From the NCBI RefSeq assembly GCF_001311845.1, contig NZ_BBCC01000011.1:1-64000 (forward strand): a stretch of DNA of 64,000 nt, in the 5' to 3' direction. Under the pieces are notes generated by a model, which did no database searches, was not told where the DNA came from, and worked only from the letters and a program-made list of their open reading frames with translations. Position 1 is the first letter of the stretch; every line of letters starts with the position of its first letter. Position numbers and translations under genes: made by a program. This document shows, piece by piece, positions 46,392 through 60,800 of the stretch. This stretch comes from Desulfosarcina cetonica JCM 12296. GTDB taxonomy: Bacteria; Desulfobacterota; Desulfobacteria; Desulfobacterales; Desulfosarcinaceae.

Positions 46392-46534
46392 GACCCGCCT
46401 CCTTGGTTGAAATGATTTTTCGGTTGGCCTAAAGTAAGGGGGATTGCGCGGGCTGGCAAGAAACCGAATCAAAAAAGCCCGCTGAAACCCCGCGTGCAGG
46501 TGAGAAAAAGAACGGTCCGGAAGAGAGATTAACG

Positions 46535-47281
46535 TTGACGATATCCCAGCAGGATCAAAAAGCGGGCCTTGCCGGCGTAACCGACGCATTGGTCACGCAT
46601 TTACGGCCATTGCGGTTTTCCGCACCGGTGACCCATATTTACAACCCGTTGATCTATGCCCGTAAGGGCTACGATTGCTATTTGCAACGTTTTGCAGGAA
46701 CGACCAAGGAGATCGTGTTGGTGGGGATGAATCCCGGTCCCTTCGGCATGGCGCAAACCGGCGTCCCCTTCGGCGATGTCGACAGGGTGACCCAATGGAT
46801 GAAGATTCAAGCGGTTATCGGTCAACCGGATACACCGCACCCCAAACGGCCGATTTCAGGCTTCGCCTGCCAGCGCGGAGAGGTCAGCGGTCGGCGTTTG
46901 TGGGGATGGGCGAATCGGCGTTTTGGAACGGCGGAAACCTTTTTCAGCCGTTTTTTCGTGCTCAATTACTGTCCATTGGTTTTCATGGAGGCGGGCGGGC
47001 GAAATCGAACGCCGGATAAACTGGCGTCGGGTGAGAAGAAAACACTGTTCCGCATCTGTGATCACGCCCTGAGACAATCAATCCTATTATTGCAGCCAAA
47101 ATGGGTCGTGGGGATCGGTAAATTCGCCGAGCAGCGAGCCTGCTCAGCGCTTAGCGGAATGGGGATCGCCATTGGCCGGATCACCCATCCCAGCCCCGCC
47201 AACCCCAAAGCCAACCACGATTGGGAATCGCTGGTGGAAGGCGAACTAAAAACCATGGGTATCGACTTGGCCGCCGGATAG
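46535..47281 (+). CDS. SMUG1-type uracil-DNA glycosylase family protein
   Basis: A 248-aa protein of the uracil-DNA glycosylase superfamily. Motif 1 is GMNPGPFGMAQTGVPFGDV and motif 2 is HPSPANPKAN, the SMUG1 pattern. It should remove uracil or oxidised uracil from DNA in base-excision repair. The start appears to be a TTG at 46535, with only a modest AGAGAG upstream, so the exact N-terminus is uncertain. It is divergent from copZA. Confidence 0.88.
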   Translation: MTISQQDQKAGLAGVTDALVTHLRPLRFSAPVTHIYNPLIYARKGYDCYLQRFAGTTKEIVLVGMNPGPFGMAQTGVPFGDVDRVTQWMKIQAVIGQPDTPHPKRPISGFACQRGEVSGRRLWGWANRRFGTAETFFSRFFVLNYCPLVFMEAGGRNRTPDKLASGEKKTLFRICDHALRQSILLLQPKWVVGIGKFAEQRACSALSGMGIAIGRITHPSPANPKANHDWESLVEGELKTMGIDLAAG

Positions 47282-47368
47282 GAACCCATCCCTATAGGAA
47301 CGGCGGCCTGAACGTCATCGTCGTGTGGTTTGATTTTCCATCCGGACCGGACAGATCCGTCAAATGCT

Positions 47369-47578
47369 TCAACCGCCTGCCGATGGCTTGCAGGCCGGTG
47401 GTGCAAACCCGCCTTTGCCGGTGGGAATCCCATTGGGCCGGAAGGCGCCGGCCGACATGAGTTTCTCAACATCCTTGCAATGACACGCCGGACATTCCAA
47501 CGGTTCATCCTCCGAGGAGAACACCAGGCGTTCAAACACGTGACAACAAGCCTTGCATTGGTACTCAAAAATCGGCAT
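47369..47578 (-). CDS. FmdB-type zinc-ribbon protein
   Basis: A 69-aa putative regulatory protein. The opening MPIFEYQCKACCHVFERLV and CPAC form the two knuckles of a rubredoxin-like zinc ribbon typical of FmdB/CxxC_CxxC_SSSS proteins. The tail is Gly/Pro-rich. An AAAGGAG site precedes the ATG at 47578. The cellular role is not known. Confidence 0.85.
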   Translation of the reverse strand: MPIFEYQCKACCHVFERLVFSSEDEPLECPACHCKDVEKLMSAGAFRPNGIPTGKGGFAPPACKPSAGG

Positions 47579-47712
47579 TTTTACGCTCCTTTGATTTGTG
47601 GACGAAAGAATAACCGCCACCATCAATAAGTCAAGTTTTTTGTCCCTAAAATTCCGGGATTCTCCGGCGGCTCACAATTATCCGGGATTCTTTTGGAAAA
47701 TTCAAAAAGCAG

Positions 47713-47741
47713 TTGACAAGGCAGAGCATGGATGGGATATG
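47713..47741 (+). promoter_or_regulatory. sigma-70-type promoter of the Trp-leader/DAHP synthase unit
   Basis: A perfect -35 TTGACA (47713-47718), a 17-bp spacer and GATATG as a partial -10 place the start near 47749, about 40 bp before the leader ATG. The next gene, on the other strand, is outside. Confidence 0.55.
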
Positions 47742-47787
47742 CATGAACAACCGGGTCATTCAAGTAAAACGGGAATTTGTAAAACCG

Positions 47788-47871
47788 ATGCGTATTTCAG
47801 TCATTACAACCTACTGGCGGTGGTGGTGGTATCCCCACGATGGGCATGCCTGTTGGGTTCCCTTTGCATGA
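47788..47871 (+). CDS. Trp/Tyr-rich leader peptide
   Basis: A 27-codon ORF holding the cluster TYWRWWWYPH (residues 8-17) and a fifth Trp at residue 23. Five Trp in 27 residues is far above chance. Just after it come a 6-bp hairpin (GAAACC/GGTTTC, 47870-47886), a terminator-like hairpin, and then, with nothing else between, the DAHP synthase gene. This is the architecture of ribosome-mediated attenuation responding to charged tRNA-Trp (and perhaps Tyr). It is known for trp operons; here it heads the first enzyme of the shikimate pathway. Confidence 0.85.
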   Translation: MRISVITTYWRWWWYPHDGHACWVPFA

Positions 47872-47897
47872 AACCGGCTTGGTTTCAACAACACATT

Positions 47898-47935
47898 AAC
47901 GGACCTTCGGGCAAGCCCCCGGCGGTCCGTTTTCG
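47898..47935 (+). terminator. attenuator terminator ahead of DAHP synthase
   Basis: An 8-bp outer stem (AACGGACC 47898-47905 with GGTCCGTT 47924-47931) has an inner GGGC/GCCC stem and a TTTTCGTTT tail. It lies between the Trp-rich leader and the gene start at 48025. Confidence 0.75.
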
Positions 47936-48024
47936 TTTGGAAGGACCGTGAGTGATCAGGGGCGTTGATGATCGTATCGCTGACGAGGCCATGAAAGGTT
48001 CCCATTTTCATAAGGAGGAAGACG

Positions 48025-49042
48025 ATGCTGGTAGTCATGGATGTTTCCGCAACGCCCGAACAGATCGAGCAGGTGGTCAATGTCATCGAGGCAAAGGGCT
48101 GCACGGCCCGCCCGATTCCCGGCGGTGACCGGGTATCCATCGGGGTGTTGAACAACGCGGGTCCCTGGACGCATCCCTGTTTATTGGGTTGCCCGGGGTC
48201 AAGGACGCGGTGCCGATCACCAAGCCGTACAAGCTGGTCAGCCGGGAGACCAAGGCGGACGACACCTTGATTCAGGTCGCGACGTCGTCATCGGTAATGG
48301 GAACCTGACCCTCATGGCCGGACCCTGTGCCATTGAAAGCGAAGACCAGGCCCTGACCATCGCCGGTCATGTTAAAAAATCCGGCGCCCACATGTTTCGC
48401 GGGGGGGCCTTCAAACCGCGCACCTCACCGTATACCTTTCAGGGACTTGGCGAGGCAGGGCTCAAGATCCTGGCCAAGGTCCGCGAAACCACCGGCATGC
48501 CGGTGGTGACGGAGGTGATGGACACCCAGGCCTTTGATCTGGTGGAGCACTATGCCGACATGCTCCAAATCGGAACCCGCAACATGCAGAACTTCAGCCT
48601 GCTCAAAAGAGCCGGCGAATCTTTCCGACCGATTCTGCTCAAACGCGGCTTGGCCGCCACCATCGAAGAATGGCTCATGGCCGCCGAATACATCATGGCC
48701 CAGGGCAACCATCAGGTGGTTTTGTGCGAGCGCGGTGTGCGGACGTTCGTGCATCACAGCCGGAACACCCTGGATCTGTCCGCCGTTCCGGTGGTAAGAA
48801 AGGAGAGCCATCTACCCATCATCGTCGATCCCAGCCATGCGGCGGGTCGACGGGACCAGGTGCTGCCCCTGTCCCGGGCGGCGGTGGCGGCCAATGCCCA
48901 TGGGCTGATGGTGGAGGTTCATCACCAGCCTGAGAAAGCCTTGAGTGACGGCGCACAAAGTCTCTATCCGGAGCAGTTCGATATCCTTTGCCGACAGGTG
49001 AAGGCCATTTTTAATGTTTCCGGTGGCCAGGAGCCTTTCTAA
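48025..49042 (+). CDS. aroF: DAHP synthase, type I-beta with N-terminal regulatory domain (frame breaks)
   Basis: When joined, 339 aa. It condenses PEP and erythrose-4-phosphate, opening aromatic amino acid synthesis. The N-terminal ferredoxin-like domain (MLVVMDVSATPEQIEQVV...) is the feedback module of Thermotoga-type enzymes; the barrel has MAGPCAIES, GGAFKPRTSPYTFQG, IGTRNMQNF and VDPSHAAGRR. Missing bases at about 48163 and 48277 (CAGGTCGCGACG) break it; repaired text reads VDASLFIGLPGVKDAVPITK and VGDVVIGNGNLTLMAGPC. TAAGGAGGAAG precedes the ATG. It may be doubly regulated, by attenuation and allostery. Confidence 0.92.
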
Positions 49043-49098
49043 AGCGACCGTCGCGAATCCGAATGAGAAGATGCACACATAACAGGGAGGGCCTAACG

Positions 49099-49440
49099 GT
49101 GAAGCGCGCCGTGGTGATCGGGGTGGGGATTGTTTTCTGCTTGCTGACCGGGTGTACGCAGGAATCGCAGAACAAGATCGGCCGGTCCATTCAGAACTGG
49201 ACCGGAACCAATGGTGTATTGGAAATCTATGCCGGTGATAAGCTGGTGCGCCGGTTCATCGGTATCGACAAGCTTTCCACGGCCTATGGCACTTCGGATA
49301 ACACCGCGCGGCCTTACCGTTATGGGTACGGGTACCTGGATGCCAACCTGAACATGGTCCGGGATGCGAACGAACGGAAAGTTTACTTCGAGTTCTCCGA
49401 TTACGCCACCAACTACATCTTTTTTGAAAATCCCCAGTAG
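49099..49440 (+). CDS. small lipoprotein
   Basis: A 113-aa protein. A GTG start at 49099 follows an AGGGAGGGCC ribosome site; the signal peptide KRAVVIGVGIVFCLLTGC ends in a lipobox (LLTGC), so the mature protein should be lipid-anchored at Cys. The rest (DKLVRRFIGIDKLSTAYGTS...) matches no family I know. It lies downstream of the DAHP synthase with 57 bp between and could share its transcript. Confidence 0.75.
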   Translation: MKRAVVIGVGIVFCLLTGCTQESQNKIGRSIQNWTGTNGVLEIYAGDKLVRRFIGIDKLSTAYGTSDNTARPYRYGYGYLDANLNMVRDANERKVYFEFSDYATNYIFFENPQ

Positions 49441-49450
49441 GGCAAGATAT

Positions 49451-49486
49451 CCTCCCCGACGGGACGGCAACCCATCGCCGGGGAGG
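49451..49486. terminator. stem-loop between convergent genes
   Basis: CCTCCCCG (49451-49458) pairs with CGGGGAGG (49479-49486). It lies between the lipoprotein and typA stops. There is no T-run, so it is a weak terminator candidate. Confidence 0.4.
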
Positions 49487-49509
49487 AGAGGAAGCGCACC
49501 TGAAACGGC

Positions 49510-51351
49510 TTATTTCTTGGTGCCGCGTTGCACATAACGGGCTTTGACCCCCAAGGTCACTTTACGCAAGCGGATCGATTTCGGGGTTATTTCCACGCGC
49601 TCGTCATCGCGGATAAAATTGATGGCCTGCTCCAGGGTCATGGGACGGATCGGTGCCAGGACCACGTTCTCGTCCTTTCCCGAGGCGCGCATATTGGTCA
49701 GCTTTTTCTCTTTGGTGGGATTGACGTTGATGTCCGATTCACGGTTGTGCTCGCCGATGACCATGCCTTCGTAGACCGGCTCCCCGGGAAGGATGAACAA
49801 CCGGCCCCGCGGTTCCAGATTGTAAAGGGCGTAGGGTACGGCACTGCCCTGGCGGTCGGACACGATGGAACCGGTGAAGCGGCTGGGAAAATCACCGCGA
49901 TAGGCCTCGTATCCCAGGAAGTAGGAATTCATGATTCCGGTCCCCCGGGTATCGGTGAGAAATTCGTCGCGGTAGCCGATCAAGGCCCGGGAGGGAATGG
50001 AAAACTCGATCCGTACTCGGCCGGTGCCGGTATTGATGAGGTTCATCATTTTTCCCTTGCGTACGGAGAGCTTCTCGGTGACCACCCCCATGAAGGCCTC
50101 GTCGCAATCCACAAAAAGCCGCTCGATGGGCTCCTTGACCACCCCGTCCTCGGTCTTGAGAATCACCTCCGGACGACCCACGCAGAACTCGAATCCCTCC
50201 CGACGCATGGTCTCGATAAGGATGGCCAGCTGAAATTCGCCGCGGCCCTTGACCACCACCGAATCCCGGTCACCGGTGGCGTCCACCTGGATGGCCACGT
50301 TGAGCAGCGTCTCCTTTTTCAGGCGCTCACGGATTTTGGCCGATTGGATATAGCGGCCTTCCCGGCCGGATAAGGGGCCGTCGTTGATGGTGAAGAGCAT
50401 GGAAACGGTGGGCGGATCGACGGTAATGCGCTCCAGGGCATGTGGGGCGTCTTCCGTACAGATGGTATCCCCGATGGTCACCTCGTCGATGCCCGAGAGA
50501 ATGGCGATCTCACCCGCGCCCACCCGGTCCACGGGGGTAATGTCCATGCCTTCGTAAACCTGCAGGCGGGTCACCTTCAACGGCCGGTGGTTGCCGTCGG
50601 CATCGATGCAGATCAGGCGATGCCTGGATTCGGCCACGCCGCCCACGACCCGGCCCACCGCCAGGCGGCCCAGGTAATCCGAGTACCCCAGATCGGAGAC
50701 CAGCATCTGAAAGGGCGCATCCGCGGCAAAGCGCGGAGGGGGGATTTCGCGCAAAATGGCGTCAAAAACATGATGCAGGTCGTCGGCCAAACGATCCGGC
50801 GCCGGGCCCGCCACCCCGTCCCGGCCAATGGCATAGAACAGCGGAAACTCGAGCTGATCCTCGTTGGCATCCAGATCGATCAAAAGATCATACACCTGGT
50901 CCAGGACCGCTGCTGCACGGGCGTCCTTGCGGTCGATCTTGTTGATCACGACGATGATTTTAAGCTTGGATTGAAGGGCCTTTTGCAGCACGAAGCGTGT
51001 TTGCGGCAGCGGCCCCTCGGAGGCGTCGACCAGCAGGATGGCACCATCGACCATGGAGAGGGCGCGCTCCACTTCCCCACCGAAGTCGGCGTGACCCGGA
51101 GTGTCGACGATGTTGATTTTTACCCCTTGATAGACCACGGAACAGTTTTTCGCGGCAATGGTGATGCCCCGTTCGCGCTCCAGATCCATGCGGTCCATGA
51201 CCCGTTCATCCATTTGCTGGCCTTGGCGGAAAAGGCCGCTTTGGCGGAACATGGCATCGACCAGGGTGGTTTTGCCATGGTCAACATGGGCAATGATGGC
51301 AATATTGCGAAGTTTGTCGTTGGTTGAAAAAGACATGCGGGTTCGTTTCAT
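49510..51351 (-). CDS. typA: translational GTPase TypA/BipA
   Basis: A 613-aa ribosome-associated GTPase. G1 is [11 protein letters not shown]3 is DTPGHADF, G4 is NKID, and the EF-G-like domains and BipA C-terminal domain follow ([20 protein letters not shown]). It acts in 50S assembly and in stress and low-temperature growth. An in-frame ATG at 51336 ([11 protein letters not shown]) may be the true start, because the AAAGG site abuts the first ATG. It is frame-intact. Confidence 0.96.
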
Positions 51352-51419
51352 CCTTTAAGATTAAATGGGCAATATAGCCATCTGCGGACTCAAAGCAAGG
51401 TTCGAAGTCGGATTTAATT

Positions 51420-51437
51420 TTGACGGATTCGTAAAAA
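51420..51437 (-). repeat. dispersed intergenic repeat copy (inverted)
   Basis: The minus strand reads TTTTTACGAATCCGTCAA, identical over 18 bp to 40508-40525. Confidence 0.6.
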
Positions 51438-51518
51438 ACCTGAAAAAGCGTCACGGCCGATTCAGTCGGCATTTTCCCTTGATCGGGTGTCCCGGTGATG
51501 AACCGGCGATCTCTTCCT

Positions 51519-52103
51519 TCAGCATCGGACTGATCGCCGGTCGAGGCCCTTGATTTTTTGCAGGGCGATGTAATCCCGTTGCTCAGCCATCAGCAGGGAG
51601 GGGGAAAGGGCGCAATGGAGCTTAAGGACCGTCACGTCGGTCGTCTCCCGGACGACGACGCCGTTGATCGGTGCACTACGGCCACTGTCGAAAATGATTT
51701 CTCCCAGTACGGACTGTCCCTTTCCATAAACACCGGAACTGGCCAGGCAGATACCATCCTCGGACACATCCAGCACCGGGCAGGTGAACACCGGCGCCGA
51801 CTGCGGATCGCCAATTTTCTGAACGAAGACAGGGGTGGGGGGCGTTTCATAGTGGATTCGGTAGGCCTGACGGTTTTCAGCGGCAAGGTCCCCATGGCGA
51901 TGGACACCATCGGCCGTCCGGGACCAAGGCCGTCGAATCAACCGCCACAGCGTGATCAGGGCAAGCATCGTACTGATTAAGAGGGTGGTGGTGAAGTAAT
52001 AGCGTCCATGGGCGGTCGTTCTGAAGTAGGATGCGCCCCGCAAAGACCACGTTGTCAGGATGATTGCCAAACTGAGCAAAAAGGTGAGGAGATGGGCTTT
52101 CAT
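51519..52103 (-). CDS. membrane-anchored PilZ-domain protein
   Basis: A 194-aa protein. Two N-terminal membrane helices (LLTFLLSLAIILTTW; FTTTLLISTMLALITLW) precede a PilZ-like domain (NRQAYRIHYETPP ... VLDVSEDGICLASSG). The c-di-GMP signature is RxxxR...D/NxSxxG; here NRQAYRI supplies one Arg cleanly and VSEDG replaces NxSxxG in part, so binding is possible but unproven. Its ATG overlaps the stop of the K+ channel gene upstream, implying joint function. Confidence 0.75.
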   Translation of the reverse strand: MKAHLLTFLLSLAIILTTWSLRGASYFRTTAHGRYYFTTTLLISTMLALITLWRLIRRPWSRTADGVHRHGDLAAENRQAYRIHYETPPTPVFVQKIGDPQSAPVFTCPVLDVSEDGICLASSGVYGKGQSVLGEIIFDSGRSAPINGVVVRETTDVTVLKLHCALSPSLLMAEQRDYIALQKIKGLDRRSVRC

Positions 52104-53454
52104 GATGGCTCTTCCGAAATGATGCGGATGACCGTATTGATCACCTCATGGGCATCCGGGCTTTTCACCACCACGGCATCGGCGCCGGCGGAAAGCGCCC
52201 GCTGGCGGGTGGCGTTGTTGTCATCGGCGGTAAACAAAATCAGTCGTGTATTCTTCAGTTCAGGGTTCTCGCGCACCCGCGTGCAGATGTCGATCCCCGA
52301 GAGAACCGGCAGCATAAAGTCAATCACGGCGACTGTCGGGCGGAGGCGGTGGATCAGTTCCAGCCCCGAGGTGCCATCGGCAGCCGTGTGGGGAATAAAC
52401 CCCGCTTTCTGGAACAAACGGGTATATAATTTGACAATCACCGGGTTGTCGTCGACGATGACCACCTGCCGGTTGGCGTCGGATGGTTGTTCGGCGGCAT
52501 CCGCCGCGTCAGCCGTGGCACGAATCACCAGCAACGCATCGCCGGACTTGAGCATCTCCTGGGCTTCGGGCATGAGACGGTCGTGGTTTCGCCGGCGCAA
52601 TCCCAGGACCGGCCCCGAGAGCTGTTCGGCGGCTTGGGCGACCGTGGCGCCGATCAAGGCACTGCCCGCATTCAGCGGGATCCAGCGAGGCGCGTTGACC
52701 GGGTTCGTTGTCAGGCAGACGTCATTCCGGTGACCGGTGGCCAGAAGCATTTCCCGGGCAATCTGGGTGCCTGCGGTGGTAAAAGGTGAGATCACCGTGT
52801 CCGCACCGGCTTTATGGAGTTTGCTTTCCACCTGGGGATCATTGGCGCGTGCGATAATACGCAGGGTGGGGTTCATTTCGCGGGCGGTGAGCACCAGAAA
52901 GACGTTTTCAGGATCGGAACCCAGCAGCGCCAGAAGCCCCCGGGCCTGTTTGATGCCGGCATCCAGGAGGATCTGCTCCCGCGTGGCGTCTCCTTCCAGG
53001 TAAAGATATTTCTGATCCTTTCCCAGATCGGCCGCAGGCACCTGATCCACGACCACGAAGGGTGCCCGTGCGGCGTTGAATTGGTCGGCTGCCGCGCGGC
53101 CCACGCGGCCAAAGCCGCAGATGATCTGGTGCCCTTTCAGCGATTGAATTTGACGCTGCATTTTTCTTTTCTCCGCACGTCCACTCCAGGTATTTTCGAG
53201 CAGGGATTCCCCCAATGCCCGGCCGGCAAGCGCAAGCCCCAGGATACTACAGAAGATCAGGCAATCGAGAATGCCTGCCCTTTGGGCGAAAGCGGTATCA
53301 CTTCACCGTAGCCGACCGTGGAGATGGTGATCGCCGACATGTAGAGCCCCTGGAAAAAAGTATATTTTTCCAGCAGCATGTAGCCAAACGTCCCACCCAA
53401 CAAAATGGTGAAAAAAATCCCAACCGCAAAAAAGATCCGTTTGCGCGTTCCCAT
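52100..53454 (-). CDS. 2-TM K+ channel fused to RCK (TrkA) and a C-terminal receiver domain (frame break)
   Basis: When joined, 451 aa. TM1 (RIFFAVGIFFTILLGGTFGY), a pore with the K+ selectivity filter TISTVGYGE, TM2 (IFCSILGLALAGRALG), an RCK/TrkA-N Rossmann domain (IICGFGRVGRAAADQF), a TrkA-C domain (LGLRRRNHDRLMPEAQ...), then a complete CheY-like receiver with VDDN, phospho-Asp in VIDFMLPVLSG, Thr in LFTADD and Lys in VVKSP. A missing C at about 53262 (ATTGCCTGATC) splits it. The start at 53454 (MGTRKRIFF) is preferred over longer frames. A receiver on an ion channel is unusual. Confidence 0.85.
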
Positions 53455-53633
53455 TTGCCTGCTCGTTAAATTATTCGGTTGTGAACCTTGAGTCAGTATC
53501 GGCGGAAAGGGGATTGTTCTTGAGGTGGGGAATCCGCAGATTGGTGGATGGAGATGCCAGATCCCGGTGTCCGATGATGTCAATCGTCACCGGGATTTGG
53601 CATTAACGCGCGATATTCAACCGTTGCCGGGCG

Positions 53634-54134
53634 TCAAGCCGCGGCAACAACCGATTCGATTTTCTCCCAGATGAACTGGGCCACTTCTTCGGCCGAGGTG
53701 GTTTCGATCACGGCCAGATCCTCGCAAAGGGCTTCTACGGTGTCTTCTTCAATCTCTGTTATTTTATTCACCAGGAAGGCATCCACCTCGCCATCCGCGG
53801 GCAGAAGACCGCATGCCCCCACGGCACCGATAAACTCGCCATCCATGATAATCGGAACCACGATTTTCATCAGGCCGGCATCGCAGGCCTCGATGACCGG
53901 TTTGCCTTCTTCCTTGGCTTGATGGGCCAAGTTCATGTGCGCCACGGCGCAGATGAAGGCCTGCCCCTTGTCCGTGGCCTTGATGGCCGGGCAGAGGCGG
54001 TTGACCCATACCTTGTTGTCGGTAATGCGGATGCCGTCGGTGTTGAATACATTGGATTCCAGGCCCGAACGGGCATGAATTTCCTTTTCCAGTTCGACCC
54101 ATTTTTCGAGGGGCAGCAGATCGGTCAGTTCCAC
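53634..54134 (-). CDS. PocR-domain sensory protein
   Basis: A 166-aa protein of one PocR-type ligand-binding domain (LEKWVELEKEIHARSGLESN, LCPAIKA, QAFICAVAHMNLA, CDAGLMKIVVPI). PocR domains bind small hydrophobic compounds and are usually fused to regulators; this one stands alone. The start is a GTG with AAGGAGTG upstream. Conserved cysteines (LCP, FIC, CDAG) may bind a metal or haem-like ligand. Confidence 0.85.
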   Translation of the reverse strand: MELTDLLPLEKWVELEKEIHARSGLESNVFNTDGIRITDNKVWVNRLCPAIKATDKGQAFICAVAHMNLAHQAKEEGKPVIEACDAGLMKIVVPIIMDGEFIGAVGACGLLPADGEVDAFLVNKITEIEEDTVEALCEDLAVIETTSAEEVAQFIWEKIESVVAAA

Positions 54135-54203
54135 GGTGTCACTCCTTGGGGTTGATGTCGCTCGGCGTCGGACAGGACGGCTTTCTTTGTTAGCATTGAT
54201 CCC

Positions 54204-55244
54204 CTACGAGGGAAAAGGGCTTTCCGCCAGCCAGGCCTTGAGACGCTGCATGCCGGTATCGATGGAGATGCCGGCGGTATAGCCCAGATCCCGTTTGGCC
54301 GCCGAAATGTCAAACCAATGGGCCGTGGCCAGTTCGCGGGCCACAAAGCGGGTCATGATCGGTTCATGACGGATGCCGAAAAGATGATAGGTCCCTTCCA
54401 GCAGCGTTCCGATAGCATAGGCCATAGCGGGCGAAAGGGTGCGTGTCACCGGCCCTTTGCCGCCGGCGGCCAAAATCCGGTTGACCATCTCCCACAAGGC
54501 AATGGGCGCATCGTCACTGATGAAATAAACCCGGCCGGACAATTCCGGATGATGCTGCAAGGCTTCCATGGCCAGCAGGTGGGCGTGGGCGGCGTTGTCG
54601 ATATAAATGGTATCCACCCGGTTGCGGCCGTCGCCCACCTGTCGCAGACGGTGGGATCGGGCGATGATGCGCGGTGCCAGATGATTGTCTCCCGGACCCC
54701 AGATCAGATGCGGCCTGAGCGTGATCGTGCGCAGTTGGTCATCGGCGGCAGCGCGCACCAGCTGTTCGGCCATGGCCTTGGTCCGTGGGTAGTGGGCATG
54801 GTAGCGGGTCGGGTAGGGGACCGACTCGTCAATCCCCGCCATGTCCTTGCCATTGAAAACCACGCTGGGACTGCTGGTGTAAATCAACATGGGGACCCGG
54901 CAGGAACGGCAGGCGGTGATCACATGGCGCGTGCCGGTGACGTTCACCGGGTAATAGGCGTCGGCCGGGCCCCAAACGCCGGCCTTGGCGGCCACATGGA
55001 AGACCGCATCCTTTTCGCGCACGGCGTCTTTAACCGCCCCGGCATTTACGATATCACCGCGCAACTGGCGCACGCCCAGGGCATCCAAATGCGGATGCGA
55101 GCGACGCGAAAAACTGGTCACGCGGTGCCCTTGGGCAACCAGTTGACGGATGATGGCGCTACCGAGGAAACCACCGCCACCGGTCACCAGGATGTTTTTG
55201 GATGAACCGGTACCGGGTGTACGAAATGCTCGCATACGGGTCAT
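54204..55244 (-). CDS. oleD: OleD-type NADPH-dependent 2-alkyl-3-keto acid reductase
   Basis: A 346-aa short-chain dehydrogenase of the 3-beta-HSD-like extended class. The nucleotide motif is VTGGGGFLGSAI and the catalytic Tyr-Lys is in YPRTKAMAEQLV. Downstream of OleC and OleB, it fits OleD, which reduces the beta-keto acid made by OleA. The ATG at 55244 overlaps the oleC stop (ATGA). Confidence 0.88.
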   Translation of the reverse strand: MTRMRAFRTPGTGSSKNILVTGGGGFLGSAIIRQLVAQGHRVTSFSRRSHPHLDALGVRQLRGDIVNAGAVKDAVREKDAVFHVAAKAGVWGPADAYYPVNVTGTRHVITACRSCRVPMLIYTSSPSVVFNGKDMAGIDESVPYPTRYHAHYPRTKAMAEQLVRAAADDQLRTITLRPHLIWGPGDNHLAPRIIARSHRLRQVGDGRNRVDTIYIDNAAHAHLLAMEALQHHPELSGRVYFISDDAPIALWEMVNRILAAGGKGPVTRTLSPAMAYAIGTLLEGTYHLFGIRHEPIMTRFVARELATAHWFDISAAKRDLGYTAGISIDTGMQRLKAWLAESPFPS

Positions 55245-56945
55245 GGTGAAGCCGTTTCGGTTCGAAGTTGCTTGGCGGCCCACACGGCCAGCTTTTCCCT
55301 GAAGATTTTCGAGTTGTGGCGGATGTCCACCGGAAAGGCGCGGTGAAACAAGATCGTTTGGATGTCTTCGGTGATCGGGCTGCCTTTGGCCAATTCCAGA
55401 AGCTCATTTTTCAGCTGGGTCTTGTTTTTGCCGTTGTCCCTGGGCTCCAGCTCGATGCAGATCACGGGATGCTGCCGGCCGTCTGTTCCCACACCGACCA
55501 GGGCACTGCGGAACACCCGGGGGTGGTTGTTGAAAATGGCCTCGCAAGGAATGGTGAAAAGGGTACGTTTTTCGGTCACGACGCGTTGGTTTTTACGTCC
55601 GCAGAACCAGATGCGTCCTTTTTTGTCCATCCAGCCCAGATCGCCCATGCGGTGCCAGAAACCGGTATCATCATCGTTGATCTTCGATAGGGTGTTATCC
55701 TTGGGCCGTTCATAGTACCCGCGGGTGACTTGGGCGCCGCGCACCGCGATCTCGCCGGTTTCCCCGTCGGGCACGGCCAAATCATCGGTCCAGGACGCGA
55801 TCGGACCATCACTGATGCGGATGATCCGGACGTCCACACCGCTGATCGGTCGCCCCACACACATCCCGAATCCCTGCTCACTGAGCTTGCGGGTTTCATT
55901 GAGGATTTCATGGCTGCCAAAGGCACTCACCGGCATGGCCTCGGTGGCACCATAGCCGGTATGGATCTGGGCTTCATCGGTCAACATGCTGCTAAACCGT
56001 TCGACGATCGCCGGGTTTGCCGCGCCCCGGCGGTGATGACCCGCTTCAGGGTCGGCAGTTTGATGCCTTTTTCCTGACCATAGCGTCCCACCCGGTTGAG
56101 CAGGGCCGGGGAGGCGAACATGTTAGTGACCCCATGGTTGCCGATGGCCTCGATGATTTTTTCCGGGTTGACCCGTGCCGGTTGGGTCGGGTCCATGTCC
56201 GGAATGATCGCGGTCATGCCCAATGCCGGATCGAAGAGAGCAAAAAGTGGAAAGGTCGGCAGATCGATGTCGTCGCTGCTGATGTCGAATTCGGCCTGAA
56301 TATTTCGGACTTGGGCATCGAAGATCCCATGGGTGTAGATCACCCCCTTGGCCGGTCCGGTGCTACCGGTGGTGAAAAGAACCGCGGCGATCTCATCCGC
56401 TCGCGTGTCGGCCATGGGATAGGGCTCCCATTGCGTTTGGCGCACCTGGCGCAGGGTCGTGCCGCCCCAGAACCAACGGCTTCCCACGGTGACCACCACG
56501 CTGACGCTTTTGAAAAAGCGGGGCGCCAGAACCCGCAGCACATGCGCTTGAGGAATGCCGACCAATGCCTGGGCCTTGCTTTCCGCCAGACAGTTCAGCA
56601 TGCGGGCGATGCCCATGCCAGGATCGACGATGACCGGTACGGCCCCCACTTTGAACAGGGCGAATACCAGGGCAAAAAATCGAGACTGGGCTTGACCATT
56701 AAAATCGTACGGATTCCCCGGCTGATTCCGATCTTGTCCAATCCCCAGGCGATGCAGTCCGATTCGATATCCAGCTGCCGGAAGGTCAGATGCGTATAGG
56801 CCACGCGTCCCTGGCGGTCCCTGCCACACGGACAAACGACCGCGCGTTTGTAGGGCTGGGTCCGTGCCATCTGGTGGAGATAGGTGGCCACATTGACGAT
56901 GGATCCGGTTGATGCGGCTTGCGGCGTTAAATCCATCTCAAACAT
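55241..56945 (-). CDS. oleC: OleC-type beta-lactone synthetase (frame breaks)
   Basis: When joined, about 568 aa of the AMP-forming ligase superfamily. The P-loop motif is VLFTTGSTGPAKGVIYTHG; TGYGATEAMPVS, MGDLGWMDKKGRIWF and the catalytic Lys region RHNSKIFREKL follow. OleC closes the beta-lactone from a beta-hydroxy acid. Frame breaks at about 56683 (missing T in a T-run) and about 56018 (missing C) are each repaired by one base (SLDFFALVFALFKVG; AGAAANPAIVERFSS). ATG at 56945, or 56936 (MDLTPQ) with a better-spaced GGGG. Confidence 0.9.
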
Positions 56946-56948
56946 CCC

Positions 56949-57860
56949 CTATCGCGGGTTTCGTTTCAAAAAATCCTGTACCCGTTCAATCACCATTTCG
57001 GGTAAGTCTTCATTCAGATAGTGTCCGGCATGATCGAACAGATGGTGCTCTGCCGAGGGAAACCGTCGGCACCACGCCTGATAATAATCCGTGTCAAACA
57101 CAAAATCGTGACGTCCCCAAAGAATCAGCATGGGCAGATGGGCCAGACGGGGCAATCGTTGTTCGGTGGCTTGAACGATTTCGAATCCGGCATCACGGGG
57201 TGACAGCGGGATATCCTGGACAAATCGCAGGGTCGCCAGACGATTGTGTGGACAATGATACGGTGCCAGCAGCCCCCGTCGGACGTCGGTGGAAAGCCTG
57301 GTGTAGGGTGCCATATGGATGGCTGCCCGGGCAAACAGGTTGCCATGCAACACGGCCGGTGTGGCAAACCAGCTCAGGTTGCGAATGAGCCACAGGCGCA
57401 GGGGAAGCCGCTTTTGCCCCGGCGGTGAAAAGGCTGCCGTGTTGGTGATGATCAGCCGGGCGACCCGCTGGGGATGGGCCGCGGCCCAGGCCATGGCGAT
57501 CATGCCGCCCCAGTCGTGAACCATCAGGGTGATCCCGGTCAGATCCAGGTGGTCCATCAAGGCGCCAAAATCCGCCAGGCGGTCCTTCAGCCGGAAGCCG
57601 TACCGGGTGGTGTCGGGTTTGGCCGACAGCCCGCAGCCCATATGGTCCGGGGCAATGGCACGATAGCACGGCGAGAGGGTTTGGATTACCCGGCGGAAAT
57701 AAAAAGACCAGGTGGGATTGCCATGCACCATGACCACCGGTTCGCCCTGACCCTCGTCCACGTAATGGTAGGCCAGCCCGTCGCGATCCAGGAAATGGGA
57801 CCGGAACGGGTAAAGGGGTGCATAGTTGCGTGGATCGACGGAATGGCTCAAGGTTTTCAT
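56949..57860 (-). CDS. oleB: OleB-type beta-lactone decarboxylase (haloalkane dehalogenase-like)
   Basis: A 303-aa alpha/beta hydrolase. The oxyanion loop HGNPTWSFYF, nucleophile Asp in MVHDWGGMIAMA, acid in GRHDFVFD and His in DHAGHYLNED match the haloalkane dehalogenase-like fold. In ole clusters this enzyme removes CO2 from the beta-lactone to give the alkene. The ATG overlaps the stop of the PUFA-synthase gene upstream, so it is coupled to it. Confidence 0.9.
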   Translation of the reverse strand: MKTLSHSVDPRNYAPLYPFRSHFLDRDGLAYHYVDEGQGEPVVMVHGNPTWSFYFRRVIQTLSPCYRAIAPDHMGCGLSAKPDTTRYGFRLKDRLADFGALMDHLDLTGITLMVHDWGGMIAMAWAAAHPQRVARLIITNTAAFSPPGQKRLPLRLWLIRNLSWFATPAVLHGNLFARAAIHMAPYTRLSTDVRRGLLAPYHCPHNRLATLRFVQDIPLSPRDAGFEIVQATEQRLPRLAHLPMLILWGRHDFVFDTDYYQAWCRRFPSAEHHLFDHAGHYLNEDLPEMVIERVQDFLKRNPR

Positions 57861-60800
57861 GATGGTGTATCTTCGGCCACGGGAACCAGGGCCAGTTCAA
57901 AATTTTCCATTTTGTAGATCGGCAGGCCATCCACCCAGAGCAAGCCGTCGGCCCGCATCACCGGGGCAACGCCATCCCGAATCGCGGTGATGACCGCTTC
58001 AACGGTGACCATTTTGTTTTTCTGGATAATCTGCCCGCGGTAACTCCAGTTGTGGCGGCTGTCTGGTGACAGGCAAAAGCGGTGGGTCGCGATCCGTTCG
58101 GGCCAACGCTTTATTGCCACAGTTTTAAGCAGTTGTAAAAAGGATTCGACGCCGAGGGAACCGGGGCACACCGGATCCTGGAAAAAATGAGCCTTGAAAA
58201 ACCACTCCTCGGGATCGACCTGTTTGCTGCCGCGAATGTATCCCAGGCCGGCAGCGCCGCCGTTCGGCAGATATGCATCGATGCGATCGACCATGAGCAA
58301 CGCCTTGCCGGGCAGCATCAGGCGGTCGGTGGTGGTCGGCAGCCTTCGGCATCCGCTGGCGTCAGCGGTGTAAGGCTGGGCAACGATTCTCCGCCCACGT
58401 CGGTGCCGGCGTAATCCGCCAACGCTTGAACCAAACGGTCGGCCCTGCCCAAGCCTTTTTGCTGGCCGAGGGCCTGGGCCGAGAAAAAGCCGAAATAGGT
58501 ATCACCCATGTAAACCGGATCGCCACTGGCGAGTACCTCGAATTCGAAATTCTCGATGATCATCTCGGCGGCTTCACTCACCTTGGTCATGCGACAGCGC
58601 ATGGTCAGGGCGCCGGTGCCGGGTGTTACCGACCGGTGCAGGATGCCGCTTCCGCCCAGATTGCGGAACTTCAGGTCCTGCTGACTGTGCAGGGCCGAGC
58701 CGGCATAGGCCGCCAGCCAGCCGCAGGGTTGCAGGGCGATTTCCAGCAGCACGCAAAAGGGCATCACCCCGCTATGGTCGGCGGCGAAGTACCATTCGCC
58801 CGGAGGGACGTCGTATTCGGCGGTCACCCATCCATCGGCCTTGAGTTCCCAGGGCGGCGGCTCCACGTGGCTTACCCGATCCATGAAACAGTACGGTGGG
58901 CCGGGCAGACGCGCGATGGTGCGCTGACGGTCGAACACGCGGTAGGGTTCGCCAAACGCCTCGGAGGGATTGCCCACGGCAAAGGCCAGGATGGAAGCCC
59001 GGTCATAAAGCCGCGTTGTGGACGGTGCCTTCGGCGGTTGTAAGGGTTGAGATGCCTGTCGCTGCCACAGGGCCTCGATTTCGGCCATGCTTACCCCGGT
59101 CATCTTCATGGACATGCCCTTGAAAAAGACGATGGGGCGCCCGTCGGCGGACATGTGCGCATCGGCGATCACATAGGGCTCGGGGGCCATCCCGATTTCG
59201 CTGATCTGGATCTCGTAATGCACGTGGGCGGTTTTGGGGGTCACCGGACCACGGCATTTGAGACGCGCCGGGCTGCCGATCACGGGTTCATAACAAACGC
59301 CGGCCTTGTCCGTCACCCATCCCATGCGTTGGAGGAAAACACGCAGGGTATGGGCGCAGCATTCGTACATGAGCGTACCCGGCATGACCATGTCGTCCAC
59401 GAAATGGCAGGTCAGGAACCAGTCGTCCGGATGGATGTCCGCCTCGGCGCGGATCAGCCCCAAACCATAACGCCCGCCCTGGGGATCCAGGTCGAGAATA
59501 CGATGGATCAAACGCATGCGCCCATCGGGAAGCCACAGGGAAGGGGCCAGGGCGATGCCGGCGAAGCGCTCGCCAAAACAGCCGGCCAAGTCACCGCGAC
59601 GTAGGGCTTCCACTTGGTCGTCGGTGTAGGCTTCACGGACCATGGGCACCATCGGCCGCCAGCCCGGCGGACAGGTGCCGGCGATGGGACGCCGTTCCGG
59701 CTCGGTGAGGATTATCCCCCCCGAGTTTTCCACCTCGGCTTCGGTGAAGAAACCGGCACACCCGTCGCGCATGGTGATCAGATGGTCATCGCCGATAACC
59801 CCTTCGAAACGGAAGAAAAACATCCAGGTATCGCCTTGACGCACGAAGCGGTCGATGGCGATGTCGTAGCGAATCGTCTCTCCCGGCCGGGGAAGCCCCC
59901 GGTGAAAGGTGATCTCGGCGTCCAGCAGGCGATAGGCCCGTTGCCCCTTCACCCGATGGTCGATGCCCAGGTAGGCGCTGAGAAAAAGATCGGCCTGACC
60001 GGCCTCGACGCTGATGCACACCGGTGCGCGATCGCCATCCAGGTACCAGGCGCCAGGCAGGACATCGTGTTCGGTAACCACCCGCCCCGACTCCATGGAA
60101 AGCATCTCGCCATCCACGGAAAGGATCCGATCCACCAGCATCAAGGGCTCGTCGGGCAGACGCACCCGCACCCGGTAGGTGTCCACCTCATCAAAGGCCG
60201 GTCCCAGCATGCGGCCCACGCTGCCGATGGCGAATTGCATGCACATCTCGCGATCAAAGGCCACGGCGGGTGTCGGGGGGGCCGGCGTTTCGGCAAAGGA
60301 CGGTGCTTCCGGTTGCTCACCGGGAGGCGGGACAATGCGTGCCATTGGCGGCATCACCACCGTTTGCGACCCGGGCACCCAGACCCAAGAGGCGGTTTTG
60401 CAAATCGAAGGCGTCGGCGAAACTGCGGGACAGCTGGCTGGACAAGTCCAGAAATTGCTCATGGGCACCGGCCGTGGCGGCCATGTTTTGCTCTGCCGTG
60501 TCCATGAGGGTCGCCCAAAGGGGGGCGTCGTGGCGGACTGGAGCAGTGTTTTCCGGTGGCGTCGGCGGTGCCGGTATCGGGTTCGTTTGCGGTGCCACCG
60601 CAGCCGATGTTTTTACTGATGACGACGGCGGAGAAGGTTTGGGTGCCCTGGGCAGTTGCGGCGCAATGGCCTGGCCTCCCACGGTCACGCTCACCGTGGC
60701 GGTGGTGCCATGAAGGGGGATCGGCGCTGTCGTCTCAGGGTCATCATAAAGCGGCTGCAGATCCAGCGGTACGCGCTCCACCGTCAAGCGGGCCAGGCAG

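Follow-up and report, generated by a model that had tools for sequence, protein, structure and literature searches.

The RCK-REC fusion encoded in Desulfosarcina cetonica is probably a K+-selective 2TM-RCK channel of the MthK/GsuK type, which carries a phosphorylatable receiver (REC) on each subunit of its gating ring and is gated or tuned by two-component phosphorylation. This gating is supported because the fusion is intact in the same genus and in about 50 relatives, keeps the receiver chemistry, forms one clade and has phosphorelay genes as neighbours.

Domain organization of the locus

The window, the whole stretch of DNA analysed, comprises 64,000 nucleotides. On its minus strand, from 53454 to 52100, Pfam domains are arranged in the order Ion_trans_2 pore, TrkA_N, TrkA_C and Response_reg. 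The following features were located:

53634..54134, minus strand: stand-alone PocR sensory-domain protein directly upstream of the channel (PocR 3.1e-18; same order in genome G001)
53260..53454, minus strand: pore part with TM1, pore helix, filter TVGYGE and the start of TM2 (ORF from ATG at 53454; TGA at 53257-53259 inside TM2)
53257..53302, minus strand: overlap of two frames with a one-base frame change inside TM2 at about 53260-53275 (three-frame translation; tblastn and DNA alignment to G001)
52100..53302, minus strand: RCK-REC open frame with the rest of TM2, RCK-N, RCK-C and receiver (open from 53302 to TGA at 52102-52100)
53159..53174, minus strand: predicted internal start, ATG (53161-53159) with GGAG (53174-53171), for a soluble RCK-REC product
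52772..53128, minus strand: RCK-N (TrkA_N) with the nucleotide motif GFGRVG (2.1e-33; residues 60-173 of the frame starting at 53302)
52496..52684, minus strand: RCK-C (TrkA_C-like) without c-di-AMP signature, a weak match (21.3 bits against a cut-off of 27)
52133..52465, minus strand: receiver (Response_reg) with VVIVDDN, the acceptor Asp in VIDFMLP, LFT and VVKS (1.5e-21; residues 280-390)
51519..52103, minus strand: membrane PilZ gene with RQAYR and DVSEDG kept (PilZ 22.9 bits against a cut-off of 22.5)

The earlier note had placed channel, RCK domain and receiver in one polypeptide. The domains and their order stand; the pore and RCK-REC parts of the window lie in different frames. A receiver in a gene of its own, named there as the opposing case, was not found in intact orthologues, which carry a single ORF. 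The overlap of 4 bp between the channel end and the PilZ gene was confirmed: the latter starts in the ATGA that closes the channel frame, and the same neighbour occurs in G001, whose genome, from the same genus, is a single contig. Window and G001 have the neighbours SDR, PocR, channel, PilZ and bipA in common. The PocR protein is a possible ligand-sensing partner of the channel. A scan for promoters and terminators gave nothing useful.

Farther upstream, at 54204-57860 on the minus strand, a 3-beta-HSD-type SDR (Pfam-tested), an acyl-AMP ligase and an alpha/beta hydrolase stand in a row beside a dehydratase-type PUFA-synthase-like gene. We take this row to resemble the ole cluster for long-chain hydrocarbons.

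Pore and RCK domains

The window pore matches Ion_trans_2 with 46 bits (3.9e-12). The V, G and E of its filter TVGYGE are nearly invariant across the family. Ion_trans_2 is present in 39 of 40 members, the 40th row being the pore-less RCK-REC fragment of the window itself. TrkA_N was detected in all 40 and TrkA_C in 32; in the orthologues, RCK-N and RCK-C follow TM2 within one polypeptide, whereas the frame is broken in the window. For pore plus RCK, the best matches in structure and sequence are MthK and GsuK, and the window RCK-N was aligned with both. By the features tested, the pore-RCK part belongs to the MthK/GsuK type, except for the Ca2+ site. RCK-N has a GxGxxG motif and a terminal acidic residue, which together with the GsuK match suggests nucleotide binding by this domain.

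Distribution and descent of the fusion

A search of other genomes, proposed in the earlier note, returned about 50 relatives and an intact copy in the same genus. As sampled at this size, the RCK-REC fusion is classed as a conserved family. In profile searches, full fusions (E <1e-160) stood apart from the plain 2TM-RCK channels (1e-70 to 1e-93). Fusions were found by this means in 7 of 389 genomes of the window's order, in 7/395 of the phylum sample and in 47/258 genomes (15 of 69 genera) of the order of genome G714, being sporadic in the rest of the phylum. Scanning of genome contigs yielded about 48 fusion loci, mostly from Desulfobacterota; the remainder come from MAGs labelled Calditrichota, Planctomycetota, Cloacimonadota, Bacteroidetes and Lambdaproteobacteria. 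The fusion is also carried by cultured bacteria, among them Desulfogranum marinum, D. mediterraneum, Desulfopila sp. and Desulfosediminicola flagellatus.

A quick tree built on pore and RCK only groups all fusions in a single clade (SH-aLRT 100), separate from plain channels of the window's order, the only ones sampled. The distances of RCK and REC co-vary (r 0.82). The viral collection contained no relatives of the channel fusion, and plasmids held plain K+ channels only, at 52-68% coverage. None of the NCBIfam models shown reached the cut-off for the fusion, and none of the PDB matches listed spans both RCK and REC. No description of an RCK-REC channel was found in open-licence papers; the architecture may already be listed in domain databases.

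Receiver chemistry and phosphorelay neighbours

The catalytic set of the receiver comprises the acceptor Asp (51/51), the acidic pair (51/51 and 50/51), the Thr/Ser (51/51) and the Lys (50/50). The scan patterns sat in the DDN and alpha-1 regions, so only the other receiver positions are unbiased and the acidic pair is partly biased. Conservation of helix alpha-1 was left out as evidence, because one search pattern lies within it. Between window and G001, REC shows the lowest dN/dS of all domains (0.04; NG86, rough).

Several relatives carry phosphorelay genes next to the channel. Locus L048 comprises a hybrid kinase, HPt, REC-GGDEF and the channel on one strand with short gaps. At L055, the channel is followed by an HPt gene 31 bp downstream and then by a hybrid kinase. 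Channel, hybrid kinase and REC-GGDEF occur together at L044 and L049, and hybrid kinase, REC and channel at L046. In L053, from a Calditrichota MAG, and L169, from genome G445, the receiver is followed by a fused HPt domain that keeps the phospho-His motif AAHxxKG. L053, L055 and L169 lie within one supported five-member clade, in which HPt is thus encoded either within the channel gene or by the gene that follows it. This dual occurrence is the strongest evidence that the receiver takes part in phosphotransfer. No kinase adjoins the channel of the window, and >40 kb separate it from the closest HATPase_c domains of the contig; at least 150 such domains are encoded in the genome. Most relatives likewise have no adjacent kinase. 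By inference, phosphorelay gating, as proposed in the earlier note, has good support in the catalytic set, in kinase and/or HPt genes adjoining in five relatives and in the HPt fusion in two.

A receiver that is phosphorylated and acts as a phosphate sink or partner docking site, leaving the pore ungated, or one that serves unphosphorylated as a protein-protein module, is the rather unlikely alternative. In its favour, the linker between RCK-C and REC (12-18 residues) is flexible and poorly conserved. AlphaFold monomer models (pLDDT 86.7 and 87.6; pTM 0.49 and 0.47) give confident domains and no confident docking of REC on RCK, their contact not being fixed, and the scarcity of adjacent kinases points the same way. 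However, a phosphate sink would not have to be joined to a channel, the fusion has been kept under strong constraint across a deep clade, and the invariant catalytic set argues against an unphosphorylated module.

Links to cyclic dinucleotides

Input of c-di-GMP through the PilZ protein, also raised in the earlier note, is weakly favoured by the motifs RxxxR and D/NxSxxG, which read RQAYR and DVSEDG in the window and RSEYR and DVSETG in G001. Against it, PilZ adjoins the channel in these two genomes only. A general partnership with PilZ was rejected: L058, L060 and L066 have a different PilZ nearby, apparently in an mla-type operon. Other neighbours of c-di-GMP type are REC-GGDEF or GGDEF (L044, L048, L049 and L079) and REC-HD-GYP (L046).

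A second link concerns c-di-AMP. At 18 loci of one lineage (within L069-L090), the channel gene immediately precedes a cdaA-like gene, after which cdaR and glmM come in most cases. This suggests that the channel takes part in K+ and c-di-AMP homeostasis in that lineage. Among the genomes covered by both searches, channel and DAC are adjacent in four fusion genomes and not in fourteen; conversely, three of 30 DAC loci examined have the channel upstream. RCK_C domains that bind c-di-AMP have the signature (I/L)(I/L)X2DX1RX5N(I/L)(I/L) (PMC10117811). It was found in none of 51 fusion members, and c-di-AMP binding by RCK_C was rejected on this signature.

Main control of the channel by cyclic dinucleotides, either c-di-GMP via PilZ or c-di-AMP, with the receiver as a secondary element, is improbable. 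The PilZ overlap, the GGDEF and HD-GYP neighbours and the cdaA-cdaR-glmM linkage speak for it; against it stand the missing signature, the confinement of the PilZ linkage to this genus and that of the cdaA linkage to one lineage, with most other fusion genomes lacking it.

Predicted internal start and frame break

In 49 of 51 fusions, codon 99 reads ATG; in the alignment it adjoins M107, the internal start of MthK. A Shine-Dalgarno (SD)-like core lies about 5-15 nt upstream of codon 99 in 25 of 49 cases, as compared with 45/383 for other internal ATGs (Fisher 1e-9) and with 10 expected from codon shuffles. On account of the conserved ATG and the SD-like enrichment, a soluble RCK-REC product is predicted, which is probably made in addition to the full channel. 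In the plain cousins (L010-L035, L133-L155), the equivalent codon is TTG in 21/23, a matter of Leu codon choice, and an SD-like core is present in all 23. An internal start appears to be general in plain 2TM-RCK channels.

The break in TM2 is most likely an assembly error with the fusion itself being real, because the G001 orthologue is one intact 2TM-RCK-REC ORF (73% identical in the RCK-REC part) and further frameshifts occur in neighbouring genes of the window. In comparison with syntenic G001 genes, at least five of these apparent single-base shifts were counted within 14 kb, and the assembly is judged indel-prone at 46500-60500. Split genes in this region are an aroF-like gene (48025-49042), the 3' end of pilZ near 51550, the acyl-AMP ligase (55241-56945, twice) and the PUFA-synthase-like gene (57857-60468). 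The genome assembly consists of 558 contigs and is 87% complete. Downstream of the break, synonymous change greatly exceeds non-synonymous change (NG86 dN/dS 0.09 overall, a rough ratio as dS is >1.5). Programmed frameshifting was rejected, since the orthologue is in one frame and neighbouring genes are broken too. A genuine frameshift in D. cetonica, truncating the pore and leaving only soluble RCK-REC from the internal start, would agree with the break as assembled and with the ATG and GGAG downstream of it, but is very improbable in view of the five further frameshifts in neighbouring genes in so fragmented an assembly and of the strong purifying selection on the part behind the break.

Proposed mechanism and significance

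In the preferred reading, gating or tuning of the channel by phosphorylation, a hybrid histidine kinase would transfer phosphate to the Asp of REC, either through an HPt or without one. REC is suspended from RCK-C on a flexible linker (about 15 residues), and its change would alter the packing of RCK in the ring and thereby open or close the pore. Switching of the pore would allow K+ flux, turgor or membrane potential to be adjusted quickly. The soluble RCK-REC probably fills up an octameric ring, so that one channel would bear up to eight RECs, and RCK-N probably binds a nucleotide as well.

Two-component systems are known mostly for acting on transcription, enzymes or motors. On balance, the fusions would constitute a class of ion channels, not described before, that a two-component phosphorelay gates directly: a hybrid kinase and an HPt, the latter sometimes within the channel polypeptide, would set the phosphorylation of up to eight receivers per ring. 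If so, a kinase could alter K+ flux, turgor or membrane potential within seconds without gene expression, and structural biologists would gain an RCK ring switched by a covalent modification. The proposal is open to direct testing with the phosphorelay operons (L048, L055), the members with fused HPt (L053, L169) and the cultured carriers.

Comparison with known systems

MthK, a Ca2+-gated 2TM-RCK K+ channel (PDB 1lnq), shares with the fusion the 2TM pore, K+ filter, RCK-N and RCK-C over residues 10-321, and its internal start is at almost the same position as the one predicted here. In contrast to MthK, the fusion has an additional C-terminal receiver and replaced Ca2+ site residues (D184 by L, E210 by R). 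Across the family, the positions equivalent to D184, E210 and E212 are occupied by L/V, R (51/51) and E (40/51). MthK-like Ca2+ gating was rejected for the family, as the site is not conserved. GsuK, a multi-ligand RCK channel (PDB 4gx0), is the best PDB profile match (2.4e-45) and has a nucleotide-type RCK-N motif in common with the fusion; unlike the latter, it carries two RCK units in tandem and lacks a receiver. Plain 2TM-RCK channels of the same order, about 340 aa in length, are homologous to the fusion over the first 320 positions, lack the receiver and form a separate clade on the pore-RCK tree. RCK_C effectors of the KtrA/CpeA type have an RCK_C-like domain in common with the fusions, 18 of whose loci lie beside a c-di-AMP synthase operon, but their binding signature is missing in 51/51 fusion members. 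The fusion REC has the full receiver fold and catalytic set of single-domain and CheY/Spo0F/PhoP-type receivers and carries VVKS where many receivers have KP; it differs from them in its C-terminal position on a membrane channel.
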